Source: Phytoseiulus persimilis (taxonomy: Eukaryota > Arthropoda > Arachnida > Mesostigmata > Phytoseiidae). Taken from it: a stretch of 64,000 nt of DNA. The stretch covers positions 19,588,745 through 19,652,744 of the forward strand of contig CM075102.1 in assembly GCA_037576195.1 (NCBI GenBank), given 5' to 3'. Below the pieces are notes generated by a model. The model made no database searches, was not told the DNA's origin, and saw only the letters and a list, made by a program, of their open reading frames with translations. Shown here piece after piece: positions 39,535 to 40,663 of this stretch; the stretch's first letter is position 1; the number at the start of each line of letters is the position of its first letter. A program made the position numbers and the translations under genes.

Positions 39535-40164
39535 GCTCCTGACATGAAAAGAAAAATGGTGATAGATGTAGCATGACCGCCCTGAACCAGATCTGGATCA
39601 ATGAATACCATAAGATACCATCATTACGTCTCCAGACTCGAGACCGTCTTCCCCGGTAAACATTCCACTCCCCAGGAAACTGGTTTTGTCGTCCAGATCA
39701 TCTTCTGGATACAGAACGGATCGGGAGCGGAATTCAGTCATCACCTGGCCTTGTGCTTTATTATGCCTCCCTCAAAACCCTCTAGGTCAACGAAATCGCT
39801 TGAGGCTCTTGAGAGCCTCGACTCCCTTGGATTTCCCGAAATCCCGTTGAAAATGAAATCCCGTTGGGATGTCAGCAGATGAAGATTTGGATTTTCGAGA
39901 ACGAAACTCAGTAGAGCTCTCTCCCCCGGTTCAGCCGCAGCGGGAACCCACACTCCGAGGCCTCGCTGCGTTCCAACGGAACGAGCTGCGAACCGACTTA
40001 GGAATCTCATCTAAACTGGAGGCGATACTGCTCGAAGCGCTGGGGTTGGAATTCCTGCTTGAGAAGTGGAAATCGAGGAGTAGAAACCAGAGTTGGGCAG
40101 ATTCGAATCCTTACTACATATACTCGGCTTAGTCCGGGACCAGTCTGACCATACTTTTCAAAAG

Positions 40165-40312
40165 CTGGAGGGGTGATTCCGAGACCAATCTGAGCATTAC
40201 CTCCCAGTTGTTCCCAGAGTTGGGAAGTAATGCTCAGATTGGTCACGGAATCACCCCTCCAGAGTTGGGAAGTAATGGCCAGATTGGTCTCGGAATCACC
40301 CCCTCCAGAGTT
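40165..40312. repeat. Hairpin plus extra copy, inside the hAT MITE
   Basis: Arms of 42 bp (40165-40206 and 40221-40262) are nearly exact complements around a 14-base loop. The right arm is then repeated once more in direct orientation (about 40264-40312). Key words are GGAGGGGTGATTCCGAGACC and CAATCTGAGCATTAC. Confidence 0.8.
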
Positions 40313-40364
40313 GGAAAGTCATGTGCGGACAAACTGACAAACTAAGCCGATCATATATAGTAGG

Positions 40365-40643
40365 GATTCGAATCAGAAAATGATTCGAATCAGAACATGA
40401 TTCGAATCCTCTGGTTTGAATCAAAAATGATTCGAATCAGGATCATCGAATCACTTGATTCGAATCAGAAATGATTCGAATCAGAATGATTCGACTCAGA
40501 AGCTATCGAATCACGTGATTCGAATCAAAAATGATTCGAATCATTTTGATTCGAATCAGGACGATTCGAATCACATCTGATCCGATCTGATTCGAATCCA
40601 ATGATTCGAATCAGAAGAGATTCGAATCAAAATGATTCGAATC
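40365..40643. repeat. Array of the palindrome GATTCGAATC
   Basis: Fourteen exact copies of the self-complementary decamer GATTCGAATC, plus several one-base variants, are spaced irregularly by 2-20 bases, mostly as GATTCGAATCAGAAAT-type units. The same decamer forms the inner edge of both hAT termini, suggesting that the array grew from the element's own subterminal sequence. Confidence 0.85.
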
Positions 40644-40663
40644 TGCCCAACTCTGGTAGAAAC

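Follow-up and report, generated by a model that had tools for sequence, protein, structure and literature searches.

One short element in the 64-kb window, the window being the whole stretch of DNA that was analysed, is a copy of a non-autonomous hAT-type family, and its core consists of two Helitron 5′ ends that differ in subtype and face each other, with 45-bp minisatellite units between them. The explanation which we consider very probable as a whole is that of a hAT MITE with two-sided arrays of putative binding sites, in which the left array of the present copy has collapsed and into which two Helitrons have inserted.

Results

Anatomy of the element in the window

The 8-bp target-site duplications (TSD, GTAGAAAC) and the 22-bp terminal inverted repeats (TIR, CAGAGTTGGGCAGATTCGAATC) were both exact pairs, as stated in the original prediction, and the features of the element are collected in Table 1. 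The decamer GATTCGAATC was found in 15 exact copies in the window, every one of them within the element, as compared with a mean of 0.2 and a maximum of 2 in 50 first-order shuffles of the window. A single copy was located in the left TIR (at 40100); the first of the other 14 was at 40365, and the last, at 40634, fell within the right TIR. The claim that the additional decamers were confined to the right end was therefore borne out, but 13 and not 14 were present between the two terminal ones. The steps between decamers in the right array were chiefly 14-17 bp, or roughly double or triple this length, and the spacing across the family was likewise mostly 14-17 bp or about a multiple. Also present, in agreement with the prediction, were a second inverted pair (40100-40133 and 40341-40374, 88% match) and a hairpin involving the 45-bp units (40126-40206 and 40221-40301, 81%). 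No matches were obtained for the one open reading frame of the window that was compared with Pfam, nor for the whole window in Rfam.

Table 1. Features of the hAT MITE, given in positions of the window.
Feature	Position	Strand	Basis
hAT MITE, 568 bp	40088..40655	.	TIR family matches and 8-bp TSDs
Left target-site duplication, GTAGAAAC	40080..40087	.	
Right target-site duplication, GTAGAAAC	40656..40663	.	
Left terminal inverted repeat, CAGAGTTGGGCAGATTCGAATC, 22 bp; ends in the sole decamer remaining on the left	40088..40109	+	
Right terminal inverted repeat, 22 bp, CAGAGTTGGGCAGATTCGAATC inverted	40634..40655	-	
Right array: 14 exact GATTCGAATC, variants and half-sites (TCGAATC / GATTCGA)	40365..40643	.	
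Helitron 5′ end, subtype LA; begins with TC following A	40108..40133	+	
Helitron 5′ end, subtype STD, opposite orientation	40341..40366	-	
Left-arm remnant of the Helitron-derived 45-bp repeat, approximate limits	40134..40206	-	
45-bp minisatellite units at 40214 and 40259; a third begins at 40305	40214..40318	+	

A family of non-autonomous hAT-type elements

A search of the 181-Mb genome with the 22-base TIR, allowing up to 3 mismatches, gave 193 matches (97 forward and 96 reverse) and none for the reversed-pattern control; all of the matches listed (the first 100) were exact. The family loci analysed (n = 55) comprised 54 loci with TIR-type ends and the window. A TIR pair flanked by 8-mers matching at no more than 2 mismatches was identified in 48 of the 55 loci, and in 41 of these 48 the duplication was perfect. 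The weak members of the 48 were L051 (34 bp) and the two loci L050 and L066, with 2 mismatches each in the TSD. The seven loci without a clean TIR pair and TSD were excluded from the counts of the 48; three of them had a TSD at 0-1 mismatch beside a damaged second end (L047, 124 bp; L052, 493 bp; L088, 731 bp) and four had one good end apiece (L048, L053, L054 and L057).

The 41 perfect duplications, pooled over both strands, gave the consensus nTnnnnAn, 78% of them having T as the second and A as the seventh base, which we take to be the Ac-type hAT duplication pattern. The TIRs of hAT elements start with CAG.G, and so does CAGAGTTGGGCAGATTCGAATC, which is common to the dispersed copies. Dispersed copies with 8-bp duplications of this type uphold the earlier classification as a hAT MITE, and the check that had been proposed, a search for such ends flanked by duplications, gave those 193 TIR matches and 48 loci. 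Most copies followed one plan, with TIR, decamer array, core, decamer array and TIR in succession. Median identity of the core sequences was 95.1% over 33 copies, and the nearest copies to that of the window reached 99.2%. Some elements held little beyond ends and decamers; those of 95, 154, 198 and 374 bp had perfect duplications, and those of 60 and 104 bp had one TSD mismatch.

When 546 open reading frames from hAT loci were compared with the 48 elements, matches arose through the 45-bp unit alone or, in L071, through a short inserted repeat. The elements of the family have no transposase coding of their own. We noticed at bases 613-871 of the L071 element an insert with GGTTCGATCCCCGGCCGGGACAACAA which by eye had the look of a tRNA-derived SINE, and similar stretches were seen in the hAT loci L018, L025 and L028.

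Decamer arrays are two-sided in the family

Exact decamers were counted, after orientation, in the 37 copies in which both edges of the core are present. The median was 10 for the left array and 11 for the right, and 36 of these copies had no fewer than 5 on either side; the exception was the window, with 1 on the left and 14 on the right. The comparison of decamer number between copies, which had been suggested beforehand, gave a range of 1 to 36 exact decamers per element. Of the 11 remaining elements among the 48, L055 (347 bp) alone was also one-sided.

The sister copy L065 contained 15 exact decamers on the left and 14 on the right, and the right array measured 290 bp to the core edge in L065 and in the window alike. 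When the 258 bp that run from the first left decamer of L065 to the last were removed, the result was identical to the left end of the window element over the 52 bases compared. Because the arrays are two-sided in the family and an exact decamer-to-decamer deletion in the sister copy gives this left end, the lopsided array in the window fits a loss of the left array and not an amplification, as judged from these sequence comparisons. The view that the element had amplified its own subterminal palindrome on one side is not supported. Identical decamers would recombine or slip with each other, by which arrays and whole interiors might shorten, leaving elements as small as about 95-374 bp; the same kind of collapse could explain the elements made up of mere ends and decamers.

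Genome-wide, GATTCGAATC was present in 1966 copies. The 48 elements contained 827 of these, and none occurred in 264,614 other bases counted, 16 loci that hold incomplete or repeated copies having been set aside. The decamer does not form a genome satellite. A separate run of at least 11 decamers, with a wider spacing of 26-69 bp, was seen at C1:2706087-2706476 with no exact TIR nearby among the matches listed, and this run may represent either a copy that has diverged or an array separate from the family. Clustered direct and inverted AGTCCG / CGGACT repeats, by eye resembling another palindrome-rich array, were observed in L009 (1-450) and L041 (4623-5087).

Conservation of decamers and half-sites

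Substitutions were counted as differences from the consensus after alignment of the left arrays of 31 and the right arrays of 33 of the 37 copies, with columns classed on the consensus. L071, L076, L096 and L089 were left out on account of inserts or long cores, and the left alignment omits 2 further copies in which the left array did not exceed 120 bp. Non-CpG substitution in the left arrays amounted to 26/1969 (1.3%) in decamers versus 98/2823 (3.5%) in spacers (column permutation p 0.003), and in the right arrays to 29/2644 (1.1%) versus 94/2929 (3.2%; p 0.004). Decamers thus changed about 2.5-3 times less than spacers, in alignments of a kind, that of repeat arrays, which is error-prone. 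The core, with 266/7743 (3.4%), was spacer-like, and its repeat units may misalign. The base adjoining the decamer was changed in 24/531 (4.5%) on the left and 28/687 (4.1%) on the right. Four lone half-sites, defined as TCGAATC outside any decamer (decamers taken at up to 2 mismatches), had 0/415 letters changed in the left and 1/378 in the right arrays, or 1/793 together, and the remaining spacer in this comparison had 109/2373 (4.6%) and 102/2620 (3.9%), respectively. The TIR columns appeared to change slowest of all, which is no evidence, because the copies were picked by their TIR. The longer motif CGAATCAT extended 317 of the 1727 CGAATC half-sites.

This conservation of decamers and half-sites is as expected of transposase-binding subterminal repeats and lends indirect support to the original description of the decamers as transposase-binding-like motifs. 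The predicted enzyme would be a hAT transposase of the type producing nTnnnnAn duplications, which would cut at CAGAG...CTCTG and bind the palindromic decamers and the half-sites through BED-type DNA-binding domains.

Helitron origin of the core

Each inner core edge reads, from the outside inward, TCCYTACTAYATAT..TCGGCTTAGT. This Helitron 5′ edge had 635 genome matches at up to 3 mismatches, MITE copies included, and the control had none; among the 100 matches listed, 70 were judged from their place or spelling to be outside MITEs. The Helitron ends in L099, L048 and L100 were TCCTTACTA... at the 5′ side and ...GGCTGG at the 3′ side. The 3′ end ...CCAGTCGGCCAAAGGCCGGCTGG gave 425 genome matches (control 0), and its CTGG agrees with CTRR. 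In pairs of exact listed ends on C1 and C2 within 12 kb of each other, 5′ and 3′ ends stood in the right order 24 times (23 different 5′ ends of the 70) and in the wrong order twice. The 3′ end forms a strong hairpin with a stem that reaches the last base, and a second hairpin is located just upstream. For the Rep/helicase protein that an autonomous partner would supply, Helitron_like_N had 101 matches in the genome and none in any of the 14 control genomes.

The MITE itself has kept Helitron 5′ ends and no 3′ ends. Two 5′ subtypes were distinguished, STD with a TTTGTC-rich stretch and LA without it. Among the 48 elements, 37 had one LA and one STD end facing each other, 3 had LA only and 8 had none. 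L050 combined one LA end with a long array of diverged 45-bp units (24 within 14 mismatches), and L096 had LA and STD ends separated by foreign sequence and a subterminal stretch from a Helitron 3′ end. A Helitron 3′ end was present inside a Helitron 5′ edge in L048, where the left junction alone was seen, and the 3′ end of a different Helitron family in the left array of L076, where the right side is unclean. The insert in this left decamer array of L076 covers element bases 31-520, and one side of it ends Helitron-like as ...GGCCGGCTGG|T.

The locus L099 contains an array of some 70 or more units inside a hAT gene fragment, of which L009 is the uninterrupted relative. The left junction was ...ATGTTA|CCAGCCGGCC, and if the insert is a reversed Helitron, the predicted right junction is ...AGTAAGGA|TCAAACAGTCCGTG, without duplication. 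The predicted 40-base junction had a single match in the genome, in the expected place (C4:6966473-6966512), with one mismatch inside the Helitron end. In this one case, a full Helitron copy is present with a clean A^T insertion by comparison with the empty relative L009. The Helitron (G000:C4:6961103-6966498, L099 from 6604) is non-autonomous and about 5.4 kb long, and the part read was nearly all 45-bp units; since 45 is a multiple of 3, the array forms a 1039-codon open reading frame. Beside the hAT fragment, at 1643-5411 of L099, open reading frames were observed which by eye resembled a gypsy-type retrotransposon, with reverse transcriptase and integrase-like stretches.

The history of the core may be depicted as follows: The first Helitron would have entered a decamer array at GATTCGAA^TC, the second would have entered later in the opposite direction, also at A^T within the decamer arrays, and both would subsequently have lost their 3′ parts. 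Two insertions are the best reading of the core, one that draws on the subtypes and not on an empty site within the MITE.

The 45-bp unit is a genome-wide satellite

A 30-base probe from the 45-bp unit gave 31,692 genome matches (16,128 + 15,564) at up to 3 mismatches and none for the control. Counted at 45 bp each, the units total about 1.4 Mb, or 0.8% of the assembly. The unit is a genome-wide satellite carried by the Helitron family, and two arrays of it located between a 3′ and a 5′ end were, among those listed, C1:165048-175620 and C1:6524458-6526166. Birth of the satellite from the MITE was rejected as the main story because there are complete Helitrons with the 45-bp array that lack MITE ends. 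The suggestion that the array might seed a satellite had been made for the decamer, to which it does not apply; it is the 45-bp unit, carried by a Helitron family, that is one.

Many 45-bp units (in L048, L056, L058 and L099) carry CAGAGTTGGGAAG, which is one base off the first 13 bases of the hAT end. In L099, 40 of 71 units had 1 mismatch to this TIR 13-mer, and in the diverged array of L050, 24 units matched it at 2-8 mismatches. Shared ancestry of the unit and the TIR is not favoured, because the diverged units resemble the TIR less.

Search for a transposase partner

The genome contained 145 hAT domain matches. The autonomous hAT with the same termini that had been anticipated did not appear: no hAT gene with the family ends (CAGAGTTGGGCAGATTCG) was present among the 37 hAT loci scanned, of which 30 were covered for just 1.5 kb on each side. 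A 13-mer with the first 12 TIR bases was located 2.2 kb upstream of the hAT match C2:11127731, where about 0.3 would be expected by chance according to a hand estimate. Sites with the same first 12 TIR bases and a different 13th numbered 69, and none of them, compared by eye, was paired around a hAT domain.

The hAT family of L040-L045 was considered as a partner and rejected; it is about 2.45-2.49 kb long, with a 647-codon open reading frame in 5 of 6 copies and perfect 8-bp duplications in 5 of 6, and its own ends, CAGAGGTGGGCAAAG/CAGGGGTGGGCAACT, do not match the MITE TIR. The elements of L009 and L011-L013 begin with CAGAGCTGTGC/CAGAGTTGTGC, again without a match to the MITE TIR, and L010, in which a hAT domain adjoins a 45-bp array, proved to be a hAT fragment with an inserted Helitron.

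Discussion

Alternative explanations

Amplification of the decamer on the right side of the window copy, either after insertion or on the way to a satellite, would agree with the right-sided array of this copy. The right array is, however, equal to that of L065 in both length and number of exact decamers, L065 has a left array in addition, and the left end in the window is the exact collapse of such an array; we find such an amplification hardly credible. The loss of the left array, in turn, is the kind of decamer-to-decamer event that homogenisation would produce, and the conservation of the decamers might then reflect slippage or gene conversion and not reading by a protein. The variable copy number of the arrays and, at least, the left end in the window are in keeping with this, but the base beside the decamer changes at the rate of the spacer, and the four lone half-sites are conserved at least as well as full decamers. 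Since the edge of conservation is sharp and the half-sites are conserved, a protein-read site is favoured, and homogenisation is judged unlikely, while still deserving consideration.

The palindrome of the core could also have arisen by inverted duplication of one Helitron end, and in several copies both junctions do share the decamer flank in inverse orientation. Against this, the two ends differed in subtype in all 37 double-ended copies, LA stood alone in 3 copies, and L096 retains a Helitron 3′ subterminal stretch between its two ends. An inverted duplication is less likely than two insertions because the end subtypes differ, and we regard it as rather improbable.

Relation to known systems

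The constituents of the family are already in print, as hAT MITEs, hAT subterminal repeats, tandem-repeat Helitrons and satellite-carrying MITEs, in the available text of the papers cited (PMC3517528, PMC3143072, PMC10368747, PMC4067079, PMC9659126). Mar of Drosophila is a hAT MITE of Buster type, which the present family resembles in being short, non-coding and present in many copies with TIR and 8-bp TSD, and presumably in being mobilised in trans. The Mar duplication is nnnTAnnn, whereas that of the present family is nTnnnnAn, and long palindromic arrays and a Helitron core are absent from the Mar description as far as its available text goes (PMC3517528).

Short motifs repeated near both ends are shared with Herves and Hermes: Herves transposase binds subterminal CGATTCAT motifs (PMC3143072), and in Hermes two BED domains bind a quasi-palindromic pair, with 17 and 14 putative sites (PMC10368747). 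Tol2 and Ac are likewise cited in PMC3143072 / PMC10368747 as belonging to the group with hAT subterminal repeats. The Herves motif CGATTCAT (PMC3143072) differs in one base from CGAATCAT of the present family, and no kinship of the transposases is claimed. In contrast to Herves and Hermes, most of the putative binding sites here are perfect 10-bp palindromes in near-periodic arrays. Auxiliary transposase binding inside the ends was deemed unlikely for Hermes, according to a section heading of PMC10368747, and the long arrays therefore need not matter.

Canonical Helitrons are described as having 5′ TC, 3′ CTRR, an A^T target without duplication and a hairpin of 16-20 nt about 11 bp before the 3′ end (PMC4067079). 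Non-autonomous Helitrons with internal tandem repeats are represented by DINE-1/HINE (PMC4067079) and by DINE-TR1, as cited in the review PMC9659126. The Helitron reported here has the same termini and target, a 3′ hairpin, and internal repeats that spread in a satellite-like manner (PMC4067079, PMC9659126). It differs from the canonical form, so far as described in that text, in its 45-bp unit and in a hairpin that includes the last bases and is not about 11 bp inside, and the MITE, unlike canonical Helitrons, keeps Helitron 5′ ends only (PMC4067079). MITEs holding units of a genome-wide tandem repeat are exemplified by Xenopus miDNA4 and Xstir and the lepidopteran (GTCY)n, as cited in PMC9659126; as far as that review describes them, the present family differs in that the repeat is part of another transposon, unrelated to the MITE and nested within it. 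The literature search returned no published hAT MITE with a core of Helitron ends and Helitron satellite, which is weak evidence of absence.

Significance of the family

One speculation, which we hold to be very doubtful, is that the hAT MITE and the Helitron interlock, the decamer arrays offering dense A^T targets to the Helitron and the satellite carrying, in many of its units, a near-copy of the hAT terminus (CAGAGTTGGG-AG, 12 of 13 bases), so that arrays of the satellite may be bound or cut by the hAT transposase. If this were true, the transposase may help to spread, trim or re-seed them.

The family constitutes a natural series in which the ends are the same, the number of exact decamers varies from 1 to 36 per element, and the Helitron core is present or absent, with duplications that record movement. 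With it, the number of subterminal sites required by a hAT element can be addressed, as can the way in which identical sites destabilise the ends, and it is a clear example of one transposon ferrying pieces of the satellite of another through the genome.
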